Shown here: positions 8,682 through 64,000 of the stretch, in pieces
How the letters are laid out: each line of letters starts with the position of its first letter
How positions within the stretch are numbered: position 1 is the first letter of the stretch
From: Filosporella fistucella
Taxonomy: Eukaryota; Ascomycota; Leotiomycetes; Helotiales
Assembly: GCA_030077755.1 (NCBI GenBank)
Contig: JAQJZZ010000008.1
Coordinates: forward strand, 4,562,677 to 4,626,676
Reading direction: 5' to 3'
DNA length: 64,000 nucleotides
The notes under the pieces: generated by a model
The model's database searches: none
Seen by the model: the letters and a program-made list of their open reading frames with translations, nothing else
What the model was told of the DNA's origin: nothing
Position numbers and translations under genes: made by a program

Positions 8682-11573
8682 ATGGAAGGTCCGCAGAGAC
8701 GTGATATCGAAGGACTTCTAGCTAATGGCTTCTTCAAAACGAAGACTGCTGCCGGAAGAGAAAGAAGCCCTGGGTATAGCAAACGTCTGATGTATTTCCC
8801 TCTTGCTAACCTTCACAGTCCTCCATCCTCTCTAAACCTGCCGTCTTTTCTTCAGACCACCGAGTATACACCCTCCCGCGAGCGAAGTCGAAGTCGAGGA
8901 CCAAGACGCCCACCTCCTCCAAAACCTACAGTCGAGGATGAAGCCATTTCGCTGGCGAGAGAGAGTTCTGCGAGTGTACTGCCCTCCTACGATCCACCTT
9001 TGCGTGGTAAAATCGACCAAAATCCGATTATACTAGAAGCGGAGGTAACCACGGCAGAAGCCGCGAGACTGCAAGACATACCAGTCCCGAAAGATAAGGA
9101 TGATACCGCAGAGAAAAGATTTGTTTTCCTCCCAAATAATGATACTCAGGATCAGAAAGACGAAATTGAGCGAAAAAAAAGAGAAATTCGAAATCGACAC
9201 AAACCCGAGAAGGCGGAACGAGATCGCCGAGTACCACAAGAGGCAAGAAGAGACAAGACTAGAGAAACTCGATCGAAAAGACAAGAACCTGTCCAACAAC
9301 AAGAGAGAAAAGAAATACGTCCAGAACCAAGAAAAGTAGACAACCGGGAACCCGTACGACCAGAACCTAGAAGGCAGGCAAGCAGAGATCCTGTACGCCC
9401 TGAAGGAACAAGAAGAGAAACAAAAGAAACAGGACGACCCCCAATTGAACGGCACAGAAGTAGACAAGATCTGCCAACACTGGAAACGAAAGTCCCACGA
9501 GATATTCCACCACAGTTCCGACGTAGTGCATCAGCATTTGCTAGCACGCCCAAAGAAACCGTCGCAACACCTCAAACCACAACCCGTGCGCCGGAATATT
9601 TCCTCTCTCCAGAAACAATCAGACCTTCAAAGAATGACTCCTCACAAGATGCTCCGCGGCAACAAGTTCATGATTTGCTTTGGGGAAAGTCTACAACAGT
9701 GCCAAATAAGAGAGATAGCGGACACAGTTATACTGGATCTAGACCCGGGACACCGAATTCTGAGAAAGAGAAACGTCACAGTGGAAACTTTGACAACCTT
9801 GGACGAAACTTCAATGAGAAGTTGACTCGACCTCAGCAGCTGTCAGAAGATTTTCGAGGAAATTTAGAAAGACAAAACTCCGGGGATCGATTGTCTGGAC
9901 GGTCTTCGAGATCATCTACAAATGGGAGACAATATTATAGTAGCAGCGAAGATGATATTGCACCTGATAGTGATGGCGATAAACATCGAAGACGCCATCA
10001 GCGACACCATCTTGCCCATGAAGAGTCTCATCGCCGTTCACCATCGAGGTCGAATAGATCGTCATTGGATGTGAAGTCAAGGTCAAGGATATCGTCTCCT
10101 CTACCATCGCCCAAAGTATCGCCAAGCCAACTACCACGGGCTGATGAATTTGAGCGAGCTCAAACCTTTCCACAGCAATCTCGTAGGAACAGTTCCCGGC
10201 CAGTGTCTCCACACTCAGCAGACAAAGAAACCCCTCGCGCGGATCGCTTGAATCCATTTGATATTCCTCCCTTTCCAAAATCAAGGCAATCAGGATCCGC
10301 AACAACTCCAAAACCTCCTCAGGCTACTCATACTTCACTTCCGCTTCCAATCCCAATACCCCCTCGCGATATATACTCATCTGGAGACAGATCCCCATCG
10401 GCACCTCAATTTGAAGACAGTAGACCTGCAGGACCAAGGCCCCAACCAGCTTCATGGCAGCCGCCATCGTTTCAACCACCAAATTCACATCTTGACAAGC
10501 CAGTTGGGTCATTCCGTCGATACTCGGAAGACATTGAGCGTGGGAGCATCGCGCCACTTCCAACTTGTCCTCGAAAGTCTTTCATTTCTGGTCGGAATGA
10601 CTGGTTGACCTTGCCAAATTGCCCTTCGTTTGACATATGTCCGTCATGTTTCACGTCGGCCATCGCACCGACAGAATTCCGCCATATGTTTGTTCCTGCT
10701 CCTCGGAGACTGCCAGAGACCGAGGTATTGTGTGATTTTGGAAGTTCGCCATGGTATCGAATAGCTTGGTTACTCACTCTTAAAGAACGACGTAGAGATC
10801 TCAAACTTTTCTACGGCCTGGCCAATATTGCAGCGAATTATCAGCCTTGCTCAGGGAAATACGAAGCAGTCCGGCAATGGCACTCTATCATTGATCCAAA
10901 AACCAGAGCTCCAATACCTGGATTCGATGTCTGCTATAGCTGCGTCAAAAGCGTGGAGATTTTGTTGCCTGCCATACGTGGAATATTCGTTCGAACCGAT
11001 TCCCACGGATCATCTGGAATTCCGCGGATCTGCGACTTGCGATTTGAAAGCAAGAGATTTGTGCAATATTTCGACGCTCTGGAGACAGCAGCCGACAGAG
11101 CAGACTATGATGATGCTCCGCCAGATACCCGAAATCTGGCCACTTTGGTCCGTCGCTTTGCCCAGTTCGAAGAGTGCCAGCAAGACACTGAGCTCTTGGA
11201 TAAGCGCTGGCATATAATTACCCAGCTTCCAGAGTTCACTGTGTGTGGAGAGTGTTTTGAAGATGTTGTATGGCCTGAATTAGATGAAGGAAAGGCGATA
11301 CCCATGATGTTTAACAAGAACATGCAGAGAATCCCGAAAGCGAGCTGCCAACTTTACAGTTCTAAAATGAGAGGTATATTCAGACTCGCGGTTGATAGTG
11401 GAGACTACAAAATGCTTGCTGCTAAGGCTAGAGAGAGAAAATCAGTAGAAGGGGTTTATAAAGCAAGTTTGAAAGGCTGGGGACCAAATGGTGCGGGGTT
11501 ATTGGGAGGAAGGAATACTGGGGCGGAAAGAGAATTACAAAGGGTTGAGGAGGAGTGGAGGAGATGGGAATGA
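8682..11573 (+). CDS. Large fungal protein: disordered Ser/Arg/Pro-rich half plus three CxxC modules
   Basis: The open frame encodes 963 residues. A likely 45-nt in-frame intron (8774-8818, starting GTATAG, branch GCTAAC, ending CACAG) would shorten this to 948 residues. Residues 1 to about 620 are low-complexity and highly charged, with many RERSRSRG- and RRSPSRSNRSS-like runs, and are almost certainly disordered. The C-terminal ~330 residues are ordered. They contain three similar modules in which a Trp is followed by P-x-F-x-[IV]-C-x-x-C: FDICPSC near residue 649, FDVCYSC near 752 and FTVCGEC near 856, spaced about 103 residues apart. Similar fungal proteins are often annotated as Ser/Arg-related nuclear matrix proteins from composition only; I do not know a function. 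The CxxC pairs may bind zinc. It has no transmembrane segment and looks intact. Confidence 0.85.
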   Translation: MEGPQRRDIEGLLANGFFKTKTAAGRERSPGYSKRLMYFPLANLHSPPSSLNLPSFLQTTEYTPSRERSRSRGPRRPPPPKPTVEDEAISLARESSASVLPSYDPPLRGKIDQNPIILEAEVTTAEAARLQDIPVPKDKDDTAEKRFVFLPNNDTQDQKDEIERKKREIRNRHKPEKAERDRRVPQEARRDKTRETRSKRQEPVQQQERKEIRPEPRKVDNREPVRPEPRRQASRDPVRPEGTRRETKETGRPPIERHRSRQDLPTLETKVPRDIPPQFRRSASAFASTPKETVATPQTTTRAPEYFLSPETIRPSKNDSSQDAPRQQVHDLLWGKSTTVPNKRDSGHSYTGSRPGTPNSEKEKRHSGNFDNLGRNFNEKLTRPQQLSEDFRGNLERQNSGDRLSGRSSRSSTNGRQYYSSSEDDIAPDSDGDKHRRRHQRHHLAHEESHRRSPSRSNRSSLDVKSRSRISSPLPSPKVSPSQLPRADEFERAQTFPQQSRRNSSRPVSPHSADKETPRADRLNPFDIPPFPKSRQSGSATTPKPPQATHTSLPLPIPIPPRDIYSSGDRSPSAPQFEDSRPAGPRPQPASWQPPSFQPPNSHLDKPVGSFRRYSEDIERGSIAPLPTCPRKSFISGRNDWLTLPNCPSFDICPSCFTSAIAPTEFRHMFVPAPRRLPETEVLCDFGSSPWYRIAWLLTLKERRRDLKLFYGLANIAANYQPCSGKYEAVRQWHSIIDPKTRAPIPGFDVCYSCVKSVEILLPAIRGIFVRTDSHGSSGIPRICDLRFESKRFVQYFDALETAADRADYDDAPPDTRNLATLVRRFAQFEECQQDTELLDKRWHIITQLPEFTVCGECFEDVVWPELDEGKAIPMMFNKNMQRIPKASCQLYSSKMRGIFRLAVDSGDYKMLAAKARERKSVEGVYKASLKGWGPNGAGLLGGRNTGAERELQRVEEEWRRWE
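8774..8818 (+). other. Probable 45-nt intron inside the CxxC-module gene
   Basis: It starts GTATAG, has a GCTAAC branch site 15 nt before the end, and finishes CACAG. Its length is a multiple of three with no stop, so the open frame hides it. Removing it joins ERSPG to PPSSLNLP and deletes a hydrophobic insert in an otherwise charged region. Confidence 0.65.
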
Positions 11574-13387: not shown

Positions 13388-14239
13388 TCACATATCCTCA
13401 TCCAATTGAATACAAGTCACCTGGTCTCCTTCTTCGTCTACTGCAGCAACCATCTCTGCGTCTATGGCATCCCCGTCAACATCCACTGAGTCCAAGCCGA
13501 TCAGTTCAGCAAAACTCTCGCCGTCCGCATCTTGAGCTTCCTCCTTTTTCTGCCCATGTCCCATTAGATCACCCTTATCAAACTCCTTCTGATCCACTAC
13601 AGCTTTCTTCCGGTAACGGATCTCCCTCAGCCGGTAAGCAAAGACAAAATCATCTGTATGCTTCTCATCATACGACTGTCCTATGCTCTTAGACGCTGAG
13701 ATGTCAGGTCCAATCTGGATTGGAACAGCAAAAGGCGTGAGATCCACCCCGAGATGAAGATTGCCTCCCCTTGAACGTATCTTGGACACAGCGACATCTG
13801 CACCTCTCGCAACCTTGATGCCGGTGATCATATATAGATTGCTTCGAAAGCGACTATCCTTGATAGCCTTTTGTATTGATTCCTCTGAAAAGATAGCATT
13901 GACTTGTTCGGAGTCCGGAGCAATTGTTCGAGTGATCAGTTCGTCAAACTTGTAGGTTGCCACATCGATATTGTCCCAATTGCCACTGATCTCAGCTCCA
14001 ATTCCAATCCCATTGAGAAATTCGCTCCATATTCCAGTTTTCCCTTTCCCATCTTTGAACAGTTGCCGAGATGAATCCTTGAGTGAAGTTTCATATATTT
14101 CCAAAGTTTTGAGCTGGGCCGATTTCTTGCCGTTCAGTGAAAGCTCTGGTGATCTTGGAGATTTGACGATACTTCCTAGGAAGATCGGTCCTGTTGGCGG
14201 GGTGTCCCGTGTAGGAGCAAGGAAATACGTTTTCGACAT
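13388..14239 (-). CDS. Gasdermin-like pore-forming protein (RCD-1/HET-Q1 type)
   Basis: This intronless gene encodes 283 residues. Fungal gasdermins (RCD-1 in Neurospora, HET-Q1 in Podospora) form membrane pores and trigger regulated cell death, usually after proteolysis. Recognition is by pattern: an N-terminal FLAPTRDTPPTGPIFLGSI; a middle GIGAEISGNWDNIDVATYKF that matches the gasdermin beta segment; NLYMITGIKVARGADVAV (about 134-151), resembling the FVVTEV strand; and DDFVFAYRLREIRY (about 196-209), resembling the AFRVAQL strand. Residues 213-283 form a tail dense in Asp and Glu, with basic KK at about 231-232, where a cleavage loop would be expected. The tail probably restrains the pore domain. 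Neighbours are a membrane protein 193 bp upstream and a divergent subtilase, the classic partner. Family assignment is by eye, without a structure search. Confidence 0.75.
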   Translation of the reverse strand: MSKTYFLAPTRDTPPTGPIFLGSIVKSPRSPELSLNGKKSAQLKTLEIYETSLKDSSRQLFKDGKGKTGIWSEFLNGIGIGAEISGNWDNIDVATYKFDELITRTIAPDSEQVNAIFSEESIQKAIKDSRFRSNLYMITGIKVARGADVAVSKIRSRGGNLHLGVDLTPFAVPIQIGPDISASKSIGQSYDEKHTDDFVFAYRLREIRYRKKAVVDQKEFDKGDLMGHGQKKEEAQDADGESFAELIGLDSVDVDGDAIDAEMVAAVDEEGDQVTCIQLDEDM

Positions 14240-14432
14240 GGAAGCTCAGGAAAATCAATTGACACACGTGACTTATATGCTTGTTGGATATGGTTGAACC
14301 TTCGAAAAAAAGTCGATGGCGGAGTGACAATGTAACGATGACACCGAATAAAGCCTTCTCATTTGCCTGTTCAGGAACGGTGGTCTTATTGCCGCAAGAT
14401 GAGGGGTAGGTCCCAACGTGACTTCGCACCGG

Positions 14433-14909
14433 TTATGCTGAACTTTCCGAACTGGCGGATGTATCTGAATAATCGGTACTTACTGGCGGCGGATGCTCCC
14501 GTCTCCGAGTTGATTCCCGTTCAAAGTAAAAATACCTCTTCTCGAAGTTGTATCCGAGCCTTGTCGCGGTTTTCTCGGTGATAGGTGTCGGCAGTGCGTT
14601 TGGGTTTTGGACATATACCGAGGAAAACGAGCCTCTGTCAGACTGATAAGAAGCCCAGTCGGCTCTGCTACTTTTCACGCAGTATGTAATCAGTAACAAA
14701 AGAACGATAAACCCAATAATTGATCCAACTATTGCTCCAACTACTGTCCCGTTCGTTGGTGAATGGCTCGCTGTTGGTGCTGGTGTAGGTGTGGGATTGT
14801 CTCCGAGGGTAAAGACGGTGACAAAAGTCGTGGTTGAATCGCTGCGTGTCAACGTTCTATAGACAACTTCCGTAGGATCTGCTCGAGCTGTGATGGGAAA
14901 GTCTGGCAT
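14433..14909 (-). CDS. Small single-pass membrane protein next to the gasdermin gene
   Basis: The gene encodes 158 residues from the ATG at 14909. Residues 1-50 are Thr/Ser/Pro-rich and probably exposed (repeats such as TTTFVTVFTLGD). One strong transmembrane helix follows at about 55-77 (VVGAIVGSIIGFIVLLLLIT), with the YCVKSSR basic flank expected on the cytoplasmic side. The remaining ~80 residues are cytoplasmic and Ser/Tyr-rich, ending SDTSASSESSA. The frame is open further upstream without an ATG, so a 5' exon or a cleaved signal is possible. It lies in the same orientation as the gasdermin gene, 193 bp before it, and is divergent from the subtilase gene. I do not recognise a family; small Thr-rich single-pass proteins of this shape are common in ascomycetes. 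A role in the module is inference from position. Confidence 0.7.
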   Translation of the reverse strand: MPDFPITARADPTEVVYRTLTRSDSTTTFVTVFTLGDNPTPTPAPTASHSPTNGTVVGAIVGSIIGFIVLLLLITYCVKSSRADWASYQSDRGSFSSVYVQNPNALPTPITEKTATRLGYNFEKRYFYFERESTRRREHPPPVSTDYSDTSASSESSA

Positions 14910-15438
14910 TTGACTAACACTGGAGGAGAGAACGAACGCAATCGCTCTCAGCAATTGTGTTCTTCTCCAAGTTGTGACGGTTCGCGATAGCTCCTGTCAG
15001 CGTGCATATTTGTAGGGGGACTCGAGGGTGCAGCTGTGAAATCCAATATTGTGACAAGGATTGTGTAACCTGCATGAGGGTTTCCACGGAGACGGTGCGA
15101 AGGAAATCTTTGGAAAAGAAAGGCGATAAGCAGGAACTTGAAGAGGATATGTATGATACGATGTTTAAGGTCTTTTGAAAATCACAAGTGCGATTAGAAT
15201 ATAAATTGTCAAAGACTTGAGAATGACCTCCAAGTCCAAGATGGATGCATCCTTGGCAATACCCTGTTTTCCTAGTACAAAAGTAGTGCTGCCTTACCCC
15301 TCCTCCTCCTACGGCGAGAGACAGAGACAATGTGTGACAACGAGATGACAGGGGTTTTGCTGACACACACATCTCGACATTTGATCATGTTCAAGTCAAG
15401 TGCGGCTGAATGTTTGGATTTTCGAGGTAGATGCAAAA
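14910..15438. promoter_or_regulatory. Divergent promoter region of the gasdermin-subtilase cluster
   Basis: These 529 bases separate the membrane-protein start (14909, minus) from the TPR-subtilase start (15439, plus), so both transcription units must be driven from here. A CTCCTCCTCC pyrimidine run lies at 15300-15310. No known operator motif is recognisable. Confidence 0.5.
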
Positions 15439-18083
15439 ATGGGAAAGGGTTTGACAAGAGCGATCGATATCAGCAAAAAAGCAGAATTCGATGCTCGAAA
15501 ACAAAGACATCATGAAGCATGGTCCTATTTCGACAAGGGAAACCTGGATAAAAGTATCGAGCTATTCCGAGAGAATGTTGACTGGAGCTTAAAGAATCTT
15601 GGGCAGGAGCACGAGACAACGGTATGCGACCAGGAATCTCTCGCCTTCACTTTGAATGAACTTGGGGGAGATAATTATAATGAGGCTAGCAAGCTTGATG
15701 AGACAGCTTTGAACACACGGGCAAAAGCCGAGGGGCTCTCACCACCATCCAAAGATTATCTGCACACACAATGGAACCTTGCGAAAGACCATATCGGACG
15801 CAGAAACATCCGAAAAGCAGTGAAAATCTTACAAGAGAATTATGAGCATCGACTGAAGCATCCTGACTTCGGGGTAGACCATGAAACCACGCTGAAAGTT
15901 GGTCACGACCTGGCTGGCGCTCTTCATAGATCACGAGACTATGAAAATGCACGGAAGATAAATGAAACAATCTTGGAAGGGAGAATTCGACTCAAGAGGC
16001 CGGCAGACGAAATAATTTTAAGCAGGAATGCTCTGGCCGGTAACTTGGCTAAGCTCAAAGCTATCGAGGAGAAACAGCAGAAACAGAAGAAAGAGGAAGA
16101 AAAGCAGGCTAAGCTAGCAGCAAGAAACGAGGCACAATGGAAAGAAGCTGAGGCATTGCTGGCTGCCAAAAAAATTGAGAATCACAAACAATTCGATCGC
16201 GCTGAGTCGAGTAATGATACGAAAAGAGAGTCATGGAAGACAAGCCATACTCAAACGCCTTTCGAGAAGTCACAACCAATCCCAATACCGAAAATCAGTT
16301 TCAACCATGTTCCACCAAAGTCCCAATCACTTCCCAAGTCTGACCCAGAGTCCTTGACTTGGAAATTCGACAGCAAGAAGTCAGAAGGAAAAATTGCAGC
16401 TGGAACATCATGGGATAACAAGAAGGGAGGGTGGGGTGCTACGAACAACTGGAATGATTCTCAAACTACAGCCGAATCAGAGAATCCCAACAATAGCAGG
16501 AGGCGAAGAGGGATATCACAAGGAAATCGACCAGCAAGCATGCATATTGATTTTCGGCATGTGTCTAGCTCTGATGCACTTTCGCAGATTAGCACGCTAA
16601 ACCCTAGCCATATTGTTCAAGGAGAAACTCCATCGAGGCGACCAAGTGCGGCCTCGTTGACACCAAATGGCTCAGTACCAAAGAGCTCTCAGGTAGATTC
16701 GAAAAAATCTCCGACAATGGGAATTCCCTCCAAAAAGACGATACCTCAAACTGCAGAACTATCTCGTTCCCGGTCACAGTCAAATCGTCGTGACAAACCA
16801 GTAGCGCCGCCCCGAGCAAAGTCAAGCTCCCCAAGACGTGACCAGAAGCCAAAAGTGAAAAGTGATGAGGACGCAGAAGGTAAGTGAAGTTACTACAGAG
16901 ACATTGCATGCTGACAAAATCTCTAGAGATATTCTACTTCCCTCGTTTATTCGAAGCCAGAGATGGAAAAGACGACGAGCAGATGTGAGCAATGTTTTGA
17001 CTACATTTTGGCAGTAGCTTACATTCATATAGTAACCATGCAGTGGATGCATGGTTCTACAGCCTTCGAACTAAGACCCAGAAGCTCTTGGATCCTATGA
17101 GAAGATGCGATGGGAGGAAGATAAGAATTGCTATCCTAGATACAGGAATAGATCTGTCACATGAGGATTTTCAAGTTCATCCGCAACAGGAAAGTAACAA
17201 CCCACGAATCAAGAAGGTAGAGGACTTTGTAGATCAAGCAGGTAATGGAATTGATACTTGTGGACATGGGACTCATTGCGTCGGCCTGATACATAAAATT
17301 GCACCTGAGGCGGACATATATGTTGCGCGAGTGGCGAGAGACTTCAAAAGTGGCCTAGAAGCTGATGCTGTGGCCAAAGTAAGCCAAAAGCACTTTCTGC
17401 GGAAGTTACTAATAGATAGCAGGCAATAAATCGTGCTTGTAATAGTGGGAAGGACAAAGATGGGAAAGCCAATTGGAATGTTGACATCATCACAATGTCA
17501 TTTGGCTTCCCTCATCTATCAGAACCTCTACGTATCGTCCAGAAAGAGATTGAAGCAGCACTTACGAAGCCCGTCCTCATTTTTGCAGCTGCTTCAAACA
17601 ATGGTGATCGAGAAGACGTCACATTCCCAGCATGGATTCCCAATGTCATTTGCATTAACTCTGCAAATGCTAACGGTACTCCATCAGATTTTAATCCTGA
17701 TCCAATCGCTGGTAAGAACTTCTCCATTCTAGGGGAGAATGTCAAATCGGCTTGGATAGGAAAAGGTTATAAGCACATGTCAGGCACATCAGTAGCCACT
17801 CCAATTGCAGCAGCAGTTGCGGCTCTCGTCCTCGAATTCGCGCTGCAAAACGACCCGCCTTCGGTTTTGAAACATCACTTGAACGATTTGAAATCATTCA
17901 CCGGAATGACTGAAGTATTTGCGTCGATGGTAAAGAAGAACGGGACCTACCGAAACCTTGTACCTTGGCAGCTGCTCGGAGGTGATCGTGGGATTGTTTC
18001 TGGTATGTTCTGCTGTGATTTTACATATATACCTAACCTTTTCAGGTCGGATACGACACCAGCTACGAATGTTCACTCAGTGA
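15439..18083 (+). CDS. TPR-containing subtilisin-like serine protease (HET-Q2-like gasdermin protease candidate)
   Basis: Five exons: 15439-16879, 16927-16984, 17033-17378, 17423-18002 and 18046-18083. All four introns (43-48 nt) are GT-AG. They encode 820 residues. Residues ~20-190 form TPR-like helical repeats (AWSYFDKGNLDKSIELFREN; WNLAKDHIGRRNIRKAVKIL). A Lys/Gln coiled-coil (205-245) and a long disordered Ser/Pro/Lys linker (250-480) follow. The S8 subtilase domain starts near 480. Catalytic residues are all present: Asp536 in AILDTGID, His578 in CGHGTHC, oxyanion Asn674 in AAASNNGD and Ser738 in MSGTSVATP. There is no signal peptide, so it should act inside the cell. In fungi, subtilases joined to repeat domains are often encoded beside gasdermins and cleave them. 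The start is the ATG giving MGKGLTRAIDISKKAEF; no ATG lies upstream in frame. The last intron may be optional, since the frame stays open to 18166 if it is retained. Confidence 0.88.
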
Positions 18084-18529: not shown

Positions 18530-20220
18530 ATGGAGTTCTATGAGAAGGCGAACGAGGTCGTTGACTACTTCACACTACCAAACGCAGCTTATGTGTTCTT
18601 GGCCTACTTGACGATCAACTTCATCTGGCAAATCGTACACTACAGATTTTTGCATCCTCTTCGGGACTTTCCTGGCCCTTTTGGTGCGGTGTGACTCGAC
18701 TTCCACTTGCATGGCATAATTACTGGGATTTAGAAATCGCTTTTGAGGAAGAGCTGGTGAGAAAATATGGTAGACGTCGAGTACCTTACCCCGGGCTGGT
18801 ATTGAAGCTAATATATTCATAGGGAATATTTTCAGAATCTCCCCGACCATGTTGTTTGTGTCCACGGCGAGCAGTCTACCCTCTATTTATTATCGAACTG
18901 CAAGGAAGACTCCCCATTATACATTGTTTAGCTTTGGCAAAGAACCCTCGATCTTTCAAATGCATGAACATGGAGACTACGTGAATCGAGCAAAAACAAT
19001 CACTGGGATATATTCAACTCGAGCCCATATGCAGAGTACAGAAGAGACTATAAATCGACATAGTGTTGCATGTGCGAACTCACTTCGTCGGCGCTTTTTG
19101 TCCAAGAATCTTGCGTTCGACTTGAGCAAGTGGGTGGCATACTTGACTATGGATATAGCCATTGAGATATCCTTTGGACCTGAAAATAGCCTTGAATATG
19201 TGAAGAGTGGAAAAGATGTCCATGGAATCCAGAAAGGAACGAAGGATTCTCTTCCATTATTCGGAGTGATGTGTAGAATGCATCCTTTTGTATCATGGCT
19301 GAACACCACATGGTTCGGTGTGTTTTTCGACTGGTTCATGGTACATCTTGACCCACAGATGGGAAGGCCTATTAGATTCACGGATCTTATTCTGAAAAGG
19401 AGACTTGGAGATGCCGATGCGAAAGAGAAGAATGATATTCTACAAGCGTAAGTGTCTCCATTATCTGCGAACAAAATCTAAAGTTGCAAGGTTTATCAAC
19501 GCAAGGACCCCACAAGGCGAACAACTCTCTCGCACAACCCTCCGAGGAGAACTGCTCATTACTATTCTTGCAGGCACTGAGTCCACTACAGCAGGAATAT
19601 GCACTACAATTTTCCATCTCATACAGAATCCAAAGTCTTTGCAAAGAGTGCTGGCAGAACGCAATTCGGCAATATCATCTGGACATATTTCTGATGCTCC
19701 CCAACATGCAGAGATTTTGAAGCATTGCCCATTCTATGTGGCCTGTGTTAAAGAAAGCCTTCGATTCAACCCCAGCCTTTCATCCATCATTCCTCGGCAT
19801 TCAACCTCAGATGAGGCGAACCCTCTAGTGCTCCATGGCAGAAATATTCCTCCCAAGACCGAAGTTTCATGTCACCCTTACATTATCCATCGTGATATCA
19901 CGATGTTTGGGAAAGATCCAGCAGAATGGAAGCCAGAAAGGTGGCTTGATTCGGAGAAAGCAAAAGTTCTAGAGAGATATAATTTCACGTTTGGATATGG
20001 TAGTAGACATTGTCTTGGCAGGCAACTGGGTATGATGAGTGTGCTGAAGATTGTGTTGTTGGTAAGTCGAACCCGCGGAAGTGAATGGAGTTGTTATTGA
20101 CTGGAGTAGTTTTTGAAAAGCTTCCACATCGAGCTCGCGCTTAACACAACAAAGCCTAGGCTTATTGGTAGGGTAGATTTTGGATTCTGGGAGGACTTGG
20201 TAGTGAATATTAAGAATTGA
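18530..20220 (+). pseudogene. Cytochrome P450 with one frameshift near the N-terminus
   Basis: Exons are 18530-18769, 18823-19447, 19491-20061 and 20110-20220, with introns of 53, 43 and 48 nt. The order of P450 signatures is complete: N-terminal membrane anchor (AAYVFLAYLTINFIWQIVHY), proline hinge DFPGPFG, I-helix LAGTESTTAG, K-helix KESLR, PERW, and the haem loop FGYGSRHCLGRQLG with its Cys ligand. Near 18690 the frame from the ATG hits TGA, yet the conserved continuation (VTRLPLAWHNYW, then FEEELVRKYG) is read in another frame. One missing base explains this. An intron there would have to start GTGTGA and would remove the conserved block, so a frameshift (or a sequence error) is more likely. 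Everything else looks functional, about 515 residues. It resembles multicopy fungal P450 monooxygenases of secondary metabolism; the substrate is unknown. Confidence 0.8.
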
Positions 20221-25548: not shown

Positions 25549-25950
25549 TTAATTTAATATATTATTAAAGCATACTAATAATGTATTATATAATAATTAG
25601 GTATATATAAAAATAAAATAACTTAATGGTATTATTTTAATTATAAAAGCTTAAAAGAGTATAAGATTAATAAAAGTAATAAATAATTTTTTGAAAATTA
25701 AAATTATACAAAAAAATAATAAGAATATAATTTAGAGATATATGTTTTTTTTTGAAAAAATAAGAAAATAATTAATAATTATACTATTTATTTGTAATTT
25801 TATTAAAAATATAATAAGTTAATAATGGCTAGCTTAACTTAACTTATTAAGATTTTATACTTTTATAGAGAAAGTTGCTCACTATAATAAGTAAGGAGGG
25901 GATACTATTAGGAATTGGTTATGAATAAGAATTGCTAAATAATTATTAAT
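25549..25950. other. AT-rich filler between two truncated genes
   Basis: About 400 bases, mostly A and T, without open frames. It joins the cut MFS fragment to the cut HET fragment. Composition changes abruptly at both edges. It may be a RIP-damaged remnant of an inserted element; no ends or repeats could be recognised. Confidence 0.6.
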
Positions 25951-27365
25951 GTCTGCCATTCTGACCTAGTGAACCACTCAACCATTGTGTCCAATCTCTC
26001 CATCGCATCGTTTGAACGGCTTTCAATCCAGAGCACACCTAGTCGTTCAAAAGCATCGGGTCGCCGTGTAGATGTCCGTAAGATAATAGCGATATGGCTT
26101 CCCAAACGCGATCCCCATACAGCACAGAAAACCTTCGCATTATCGCCTAGAAATTCTATGTCCGATGGCGAATCTGGTTTAAATAAAGCCCTCTGATTCG
26201 TGGTGGTAATAATCCAATACTTGCAGGCCTCGCTTGAATCCCCCGACGGCTCACATTTGAGAGTAGCTTCGATAACGTTAGAACGGATTCTGATAAAGGA
26301 AGCGTCTGTTACTGCTCCAGTACTATCGAGACCCGCGGGGTTGCACTGTATCTCCCAAATTTTGCCATTGATTGTTATCCTGAGGTTTGGTTCCATTCTT
26401 GGCATTGGCATCGCAACAGGGCCTTTAATTGATGCCCATGACCATGTAGGTGCTATGTAGCTATTCCCTCTATTGCAATGCAAATCCCCAGTCGAAGTCC
26501 ACAAGAGCTGTGTCTCGAGCTCCTCGCGCCACATGCCTGCAACGAAGTTCCCCAGCCCTTATCCTTGGAAACGCTTTGCAAATCCCGACAGCGCTGAGAG
26601 ACGATCCTCGTAAAAGGTCAGCTCCCGGTTAGTATACTGACTGATTACTGTTGCCCAAACATCTAGGATGTTCAAGGTGTTTCTGCCAGGTAGGATGTTC
26701 AAGGTGTTTTTAACAAGGTCATGTGTGTTGGTAAGGAGAGTCTCGTAAAGAGCTTTGAAGGGAAGGCCATCGACCGAATAAGCACCCCGCAGCATTAGCA
26801 TCAATTCTCCAATTGTAGTGTTCTCTATTCCTCTGCACTGGCAGGTGGTCTTCGATTTGCACTCCCATACAAGCTCTGAGGACGTATAATGTAGGATTCG
26901 AGTAGAAAGGAGCCGCTCTTGCAGAGCCCAGGCTCGACTTTGCAAGGGCGCTAGCTTCGAGGCCGAGATATCGTCTGCTGCAAACTGCTTATGCGATAAC
27001 AAGGGGCGGACGAAAACGCCGGTCGATTGCCTCGGCTGAAATTGGAAAGGAATCTTAATGATGCGATCTTCCTCACGCTCTTCATCGTCCCTGAGATCTA
27101 CTTGAATCTGCCCCATATATTCACGTGTCGCAGAGTCATCGGGTATGCGAGCAAGAAAGGCGGACTTATTGACTGATTCTGGAATACTCAAGAGAGGTGG
27201 AAGAACTTCCCATGATTTTTCGCCGGCGAGTTCCAGCGTATCACGGTAACATCCGTGGTGAGCATTAACAGAGTCATTCGCTGCAATCGTAAGGGCTGCT
27301 TTCTCATAGATACTGGCCATTTTTGCGGATTCCAGCTGCCAGTCCTCGGTATCATCTTGGACGAT
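25935..27365 (-). pseudogene. Internal fragment of a HET-domain gene
   Basis: HET proteins control heterokaryon incompatibility and programmed cell death in ascomycetes. Read on the minus strand, the fragment starts inside the HET domain core (IVQDDTEDWQLESAKM, then IYEKAALTIAAND). It continues through the usual LQERLLSTRILHYTSSELVWEC block and SALSGFAKRFQG, and reaches NFVAGMWREELETQLLW and PTWSWASIKGPV. There is one in-frame TAA at 26559-26561. The frame on both sides is unchanged, and CAA to TAA would explain it. The 5' end is cut where the subtelomeric unit begins (27366), removing everything before IVQDD. The 3' end runs into AT-rich DNA after EWQT. About 470 codons remain of the roughly 600-700 usual for the family. 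It is not functional. Confidence 0.88.
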
Positions 27366-27393
27366 GTCCAGGTTGCGGGCGGCGGCCGGCTAA

Positions 27394-63902: not shown

Positions 63903-64000
63903 TTAGGGTTAGGGTTAGGGTTAGGGTTAGGGTTAAGGGTTAGGGTTAGGGTTAGGGTTAGGGTTAGGGTTAGGGTTAGGGTTAGGGTTAGGGTTAGGGT
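63903..64000 (+). repeat. Telomere, TTAGGG repeats
   Basis: About sixteen head-to-tail TTAGGG units run to the last base, with one variant TTAAGGG near 63934-63940. The G-rich strand is the + strand, so the chromosome end is to the right. The array is short, about 98 bp here, and may be cut by the end of the assembly. Confidence 0.98.

Follow-up and report, generated by a model that had tools for sequence, protein, structure and literature searches.

A gasdermin and TPR-subtilase gene pair with an interposed membrane-protein gene near an apparent chromosome end of the fungus Filosporella fistucella

We investigated a gasdermin-like gene and a neighboring protease gene of Filosporella fistucella (Leotiomycetes, Helotiales) in a window of 64,000 nucleotides, meaning the whole stretch of DNA that was analyzed (contig JAQJZZ010000008.1, positions 4,562,677 to 4,626,676 of the forward strand). 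We found that the locus is probably a fungal gasdermin (fGSDM)/Q2L-protease cell-death cluster, in which a TPR-subtilase would serve as sensor and switch for a tail-inhibited gasdermin. The span at positions 13388-18083 of the window holds three genes, not two: the gasdermin (13388..14239, − strand; one exon encoding a HET-Q1/RCD-1-like protein of 283 aa), a small single-pass membrane protein (14433..14909, − strand; 158 aa), and the TPR-subtilase on the + strand, all open over their full length. An earlier sequence-only reading had described the gasdermin and protease genes as intact and as diverging from a shared region. Their intactness was borne out by an open gasdermin open reading frame (ORF) and an open five-exon protease model. 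The divergence also stands, with start codons 1.2 kb apart, well within the 10 kb from a gasdermin gene by which Q2L genes are defined; however, the region between them is not purely shared, since the membrane-protein gene, which has relatives elsewhere, lies in it. In the gene models the membrane-protein and protease genes diverge, and the 529 bp that separate their start codons (14910..15438) form a possible shared promoter.

The identity of the gasdermin was supported by several searches. At E ≤ 0.01 a search gave 78 relatives of the protein; the top one has 66% identity over 99% of the length, and full-length relatives at 53–66% identity occur in Helotiales. The closest named protein relatives came from Cadophora, Leptodophora, Rhexocercosporidium, Oculimacula, and Mollisiaceae, which we take to be members of the order Helotiales. 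By sequence, the window gasdermin matched the characterized fungal gasdermin chains RCD-1 and HET-Q1 across the pore-forming body; its best single-sequence match in the PDB was RCD-1-2, and a profile search matched chain 9uv9_A of the HET-Q1 pore (E 7e-16) as well as bGSDM chains (E 0.004–0.05). The comparison with gasdermin structures proposed by the sequence-only reading therefore returned matches in both fold and sequence: fold searches matched gasdermin structures and place the protein in the gasdermin fold, and the HET-Q1 chain, not among the fold-search matches listed, was recovered by the sequence search instead. The bGSDM model of PADLOC matched an ortholog (P0001) at E 5e-6 and left the window gasdermin itself unmatched. 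Pfam assigned no family to the window gasdermin (E ≤ 1) and gave only weak matches, scattered among 71 members of its family (best E 5e-4). This silence is no argument against gasdermin identity, because none of the Pfam models picks up fungal gasdermins of this kind. Scans of viral contigs recovered no gasdermin relatives.

The gasdermin is divided into a body, a linker, and a tail, as seen in statistics over 22 close orthologs (P0009, a fused model, and the partial P0022 and P0025 were left out). The pore-forming body (residues 1–223; 13571..14239, − strand) has 64% mean identity to these orthologs and is the part that aligns to solved gasdermins. It is followed by a conserved KGDL(M)G hinge (95% identity) and then by a variable linker (residues 228–243; 13511..13558, − strand) of 16–39 residues, with 25% mean identity and a low predicted local distance difference test score (pLDDT), which is the putative cleavage region. 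The C-terminal tail (residues 244–283; 13391..13510, − strand), presumably the inhibitory piece, is conserved in 22 of the 22 orthologs as 39–40 aligned residues at 42% identity, with 13–19 D/E each and 0–4 K/R. The acidic tail noticed in the sequence-only reading is thus shared by all of these orthologs; in the window protein of 283 codons, the last 40 residues contain 14 D/E and no K/R. Additionally, G223 aligns with HET-Q1 residue 228, so that the reported HET-Q1 cut site F238 (PMC10989679) maps near residue 233 of the window protein.

The protease gene consists of five exons separated by four GT-AG introns of 43–48 bp, and its 820-residue product, which ends at 18083 in an open splice model, runs from TPR repeats through a long low-complexity linker to an S8 domain. 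Exon 1 (15439..16879, + strand) encodes the TPR region (TPR_12, E 4.7e-8) and the linker, and is followed by exon 2 (16927..16984, +). The S8 domain is carried by exon 3 (17033..17378, +; Peptidase_S8, E 3.1e-9), with catalytic Asp536 and His578, and by exon 4 (17423..18002, +; Peptidase_S8, E 1.8e-12), with Asn674 and catalytic Ser738; exon 5 (18046..18083, +) ends with the stop codon. In agreement with the earlier description of a TPR-subtilase with all four catalytic residues, Asp536, His578, Asn674 (oxyanion), and Ser738 were kept in 24 of the 24 aligned sequences (the window protein and 23 of the 120 relatives listed, of 464 S8 matches); their catalytic roles are ones we take over from subtilisins. 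A protease relative (P0079) matched solved subtilisins, with a best E of 2e-13. Among the nine closest protease relatives, identity was 38–46% in the TPR region versus 57–63% in the S8 domain, as would be expected of a diversifying sensor. In a Pfam scan of the three large pieces of the protease (E ≤ 1; the 58-bp exon 2 was left out), neither NACHT nor NB-ARC was found; apart from S8 and models of the TPR type, a lectin family gave the one remaining match, a weak one (E 0.15).

We then considered the linkage of gasdermin and protease, judging synteny in relatives from locus tags and shared contigs of protein matches, not from DNA. Ten of the 13 gasdermins from named organisms (E < 1e-40) had, among the S8 matches listed, one from the same organism on apparently the same contig. 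Gasdermin and S8 locus tags were consecutive in six (ACEPPN_012333/012332, IFR05_010272/010271, PAC_10194/10193, DL769_004432/004433, MAPG_10260/10261, and RB595_001432/001433) and two apart in three (VTL71DRAFT_15718/15716, ONS95_012810/012808, and EG329_001932/001930); the tenth pair (BKA65DRAFT) shares a contig, and its tags are not ordinal. The co-occurrence for which the sequence-only reading had suggested a search was accordingly found as consecutive or near-consecutive tags in nine related fungi. The genome of F. fistucella repeats the arrangement, as three queries recovered the same three gasdermin loci, each adjoining an S8 match: the window locus, a second at C3:509253-510104 (S8 at C3:508233-508931), and a third in two pieces at C16:16372-16942 (best E 6e-6; S8 at C16:18735-18968). 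With 27 exon matches from the S8 search spread over 46 Mb, the probability that a random site falls within 2 kb of one is roughly 0.2%; finding S8 beside three of three clear gasdermin loci is therefore not a matter of chance. At the C16 locus (C16:16372-20039), where the gasdermin is in two pieces, a 309-codon ORF precedes the adjoining S8 gene. A weak, possible fourth gasdermin relative (E 0.11) lies at C3:6487-7020, about 6 kb from a contig end.

Phylogenetic trees, which cover the gasdermin and S8 proteins of 11 taxa, agreed on the main groups. Mollisiaceae grouped with Phialocephala (support 100 in the gasdermin tree and 97 in the S8 tree), a Cadophora–Oculimacula group was recovered in both (85 and 100), and the split from three Sordariomycetes was fully supported (100 and 100). 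The nearest relatives of the neighboring proteins in the window differ: those of the gasdermin are in Cadophora and Leptodophora, those of the membrane protein in Mollisiaceae.

By analogy with HET-Q1/HET-Q2, we infer autoinhibition, cleavage, and pore formation as the working cycle of the gasdermin. It would be synthesized in a soluble, inactive form, with its conserved acidic tail of 40 residues blocking pore formation. The faster-evolving TPR region of the protease would recognize a cue, speculatively a non-self or damaged partner met after hyphal fusion or on invasion, upon which the S8 domain would cut the gasdermin linker past the KGDL(M)G hinge, at about residues 226–243, and release a fragment of about 4–6 kDa. 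The freed body would then assemble into plasma-membrane pores and kill the cell compartment. In at least some Helotiales the cluster includes the membrane-protein gene as a third member, and, likewise speculatively, its product could be a membrane-side partner such as an anchor, a surface sensor, or a regulator.

The membrane-protein gene lies on the gasdermin strand, its ORF ending 193 bp upstream of the gasdermin start codon. Hydropathy analysis predicted one transmembrane segment (residues 56–74; 14688..14744, − strand; 19-residue hydropathy 3.01), with neither a second segment nor a hydrophobic N-terminal signal found. The N-terminal part is Ser/Thr/Pro-rich and a weak positive charge follows the transmembrane segment on its C-terminal side; the N-terminal part is probably outside and the Ser-rich tail inside. 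Pfam gave only weak, generic glycine-zipper or transmembrane matches. A search with the window protein and the first 110 residues of P0009 yielded 17 relatives, all but one at E ≤ 1.4e-32, and scans of viral contigs yielded none. Five are from named organisms: Mollisia scopiformis, Mollisiaceae sp. DMI_Dod_QoI, Acephala macrosclerotiorum, Cadophora sp. DSE1049, and Rhexocercosporidium sp. An ORF at 14914-15372 (−) was considered as an upstream exon of this gene and rejected, having no Pfam match (E ≤ 0.01); in addition, the majority of relatives begin at the methionine of the window protein or directly beside it.

Whether this gene belongs to the cluster is finely balanced, and we consider it an even call that the membrane protein is a bystander, kept by general conservation of gene order in Helotiales and with no role in the death reaction. 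The two further gasdermin loci of F. fistucella yielded no relative of it. Twelve of the 17 relatives, 7 of them on contigs of at least 5 kb, were unmatched to the contigs of gasdermins or of the proteases listed, and three gasdermin/protease pairs in Helotiales have consecutive tags, hence no annotated gene between them, as is also the case for MAPG_10260/10261; these points speak against a fixed three-gene unit. Conversely, the tag of one membrane protein, EG329_001931, falls exactly between protease EG329_001930 and gasdermin EG329_001932. Five of the 17 relatives apparently share a contig with a gasdermin and/or protease match, namely four of the five named ones (all except Acephala) and one on a contig of 3493 bp, although a shared long contig denotes linkage, not adjacency. 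In addition, the 450-aa gene model P0009 of Cadophora gregata has the membrane protein fused N-terminally to the gasdermin; the fusion, either an annotation artefact or read-through transcription, suggests adjacency or read-through in that species. Outside the window locus, F. fistucella itself gave only weak matches to the membrane protein (E 9e-4 or worse), which also argues against a bystander. Some related fungi keep the gene as well, and it may be an undescribed third part of the cluster. Tentatively, and as somewhat less likely than not, we propose a three-gene unit in Helotiales in which this lineage-specific protein, with a glycine-rich transmembrane segment and a conserved cytoplasmic tail, would provide the membrane input or output of the switch, as a surface receptor that cues the TPR-subtilase or as a partner that recruits the freed gasdermin or aids membrane rupture. 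The excerpted review literature names no small membrane-protein gene in gasdermin clusters; the primary study of Clavé et al. 2022 may mention one.

Several observations count against the reading of the locus as a gasdermin/Q2L-protease cluster with this working cycle. Three of the 13 named gasdermins (P0022, P0031, and P0035) had no protease on the same contig among the best 120 of 464 S8 matches, and for P0035 an S8 match of the same species lies on a different contig. The gasdermin and S8 trees place the window copy differently, with weak support (68 and 64), differ in the order of the outgroup, and group Rhexocercosporidium with Oculimacula (94) in one case versus with Leptodophora and Cadophora M221 (58) in the other. 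No aromatic P1 residue is conserved in the linker, and F243 of the window protein is not common to the aligned orthologs. Neither of two AlphaFold models placed the tail confidently (mean pLDDT per ten residues < 60), so that autoinhibition is not seen directly; the second run, for which 33 closer sequences were aligned, gave a poorer model (mean pLDDT 59.2). Finally, RCD-1 of Neurospora crassa, which is among the closest relatives of solved structure, needs no cleavage for its activation and is instead switched on when two allelic variants pair, according to the excerpted text of a review (PMC12881547).

This last point leads to the possibility of RCD-1-like action, in which two different alleles meeting after fusion would kill without cleavage and the protease would have another target. 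RCD-1-2 being the best single-sequence PDB match favors it. However, the conserved acidic tail of the window gasdermin extends beyond an RCD-1-like body, an S8 protease is linked in 10 of 13 named relatives and all three loci of this genome, and the excerpted text of another review treats RCD-1 as exceptional for a fungal gasdermin (PMC10197012). We therefore regard RCD-1-like action as unlikely and retain cleavage by the linked protease as the probable mode of activation.

The window apparently represents the right-hand end of a chromosome (genome of 46 Mb in 19 contigs). It terminates in about 16 TTAGGG repeats at 63903-64000, which puts the gasdermin module about 46 kb from the apparent chromosome end; for the gasdermin/S8 locus on C16 the distance to the contig start is about 16 kb, and both loci may be subtelomeric. 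The stretch at 28001-64000 is AT-rich (GC 17–36%) and contains numerous tandem repeats, as is typical of subtelomeres that are mutated and filled with repeats, and beyond 27.3 kb there are no ORFs of at least 130 aa. That the locus is a decaying subtelomeric relic, its genes still open by happenstance, is very improbable: the telomere repeats, the AT-rich block beyond 28 kb, and an incomplete neighboring P450 match would suit such a relic, but the three genes are full-length and open, the catalytic set and the tail are conserved, and full-length relatives in Helotiales stand at 53–66% identity. The broken P450 and HET neighbors of the sequence-only reading found partial backing at most. The P450 pieces at 18849-20117 match profile positions 241–423 of 462, where the ORF runs into a stop codon (an intron is possible), and the match ends beside a 16-bp tandem repeat (2.2 copies, 20082-20117). 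At 25935-27389 (−), two ORFs resemble by eye the middle and C-terminal parts of a HET-domain protein; in neither did a Pfam search at E ≤ 0.01 detect a HET domain, and no HET match of the genome lay inside the window among the matches listed (150 of 287 candidates scored). On the other side, a 963-codon ORF at 8682-11573, Arg/Ser/Pro-rich by eye, had no Pfam match at E ≤ 0.01.

The gasdermin/TPR-subtilase pair is a further example of a published class, and on its own it is one clean example of that class. The activation of fungal gasdermins by linked subtilases, stated as known in the sequence-only reading, is the logic given in the excerpted reviews for HET-Q1/HET-Q2 and, more generally, for fGSDM/Q2L clusters (PMC10197012, PMC10989679, PMC12881547). 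In their text, about 1900 fungal gasdermins are counted across 400 genomes; about 80% of them have a protease gene nearby, and about 60–63% an S8 gene (PMC10197012, PMC10989679). For one review, it is a major open question which stimuli switch on the putative sensors in fungal death pathways (PMC12881547, in excerpt). If the membrane protein does belong to the unit, it would be a concrete candidate for this missing input, and the question could be tested in yeast with three genes. Compared with bGSDM operons, as outlined in the excerpted reviews, the locus shares the gasdermin fold, the short tail, and the linked protease; it is remote in sequence, and here a fungal gene stands with a TPR-subtilase. 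The resemblance to HET-Q1/HET-Q2 of Podospora anserina is closer, comprising a gasdermin with a subtilisin-like S8 partner, a similar length (283 versus 278 aa), and a short tail of about 40 residues, the number that HET-Q2 removes by cutting HET-Q1 at F238 (PMC10989679, in excerpt). Unlike that system, the window protease is 820 aa with N-terminal TPR versus 388 aa for HET-Q2, no conserved F stands at the cut site, and a third gene lies between the pair. Two-gene fGSDM/Q2L clusters, known here from the excerpted reviews, likewise have an S8 protease with TPR-type repeats adjoining a gasdermin, with TPR, ANK, and WD40 repeats being common Q2L architectures (PMC10197012, PMC10989679, PMC12881547); whereas the unit described there is gasdermin plus protease, the window locus adds a small membrane-protein gene.

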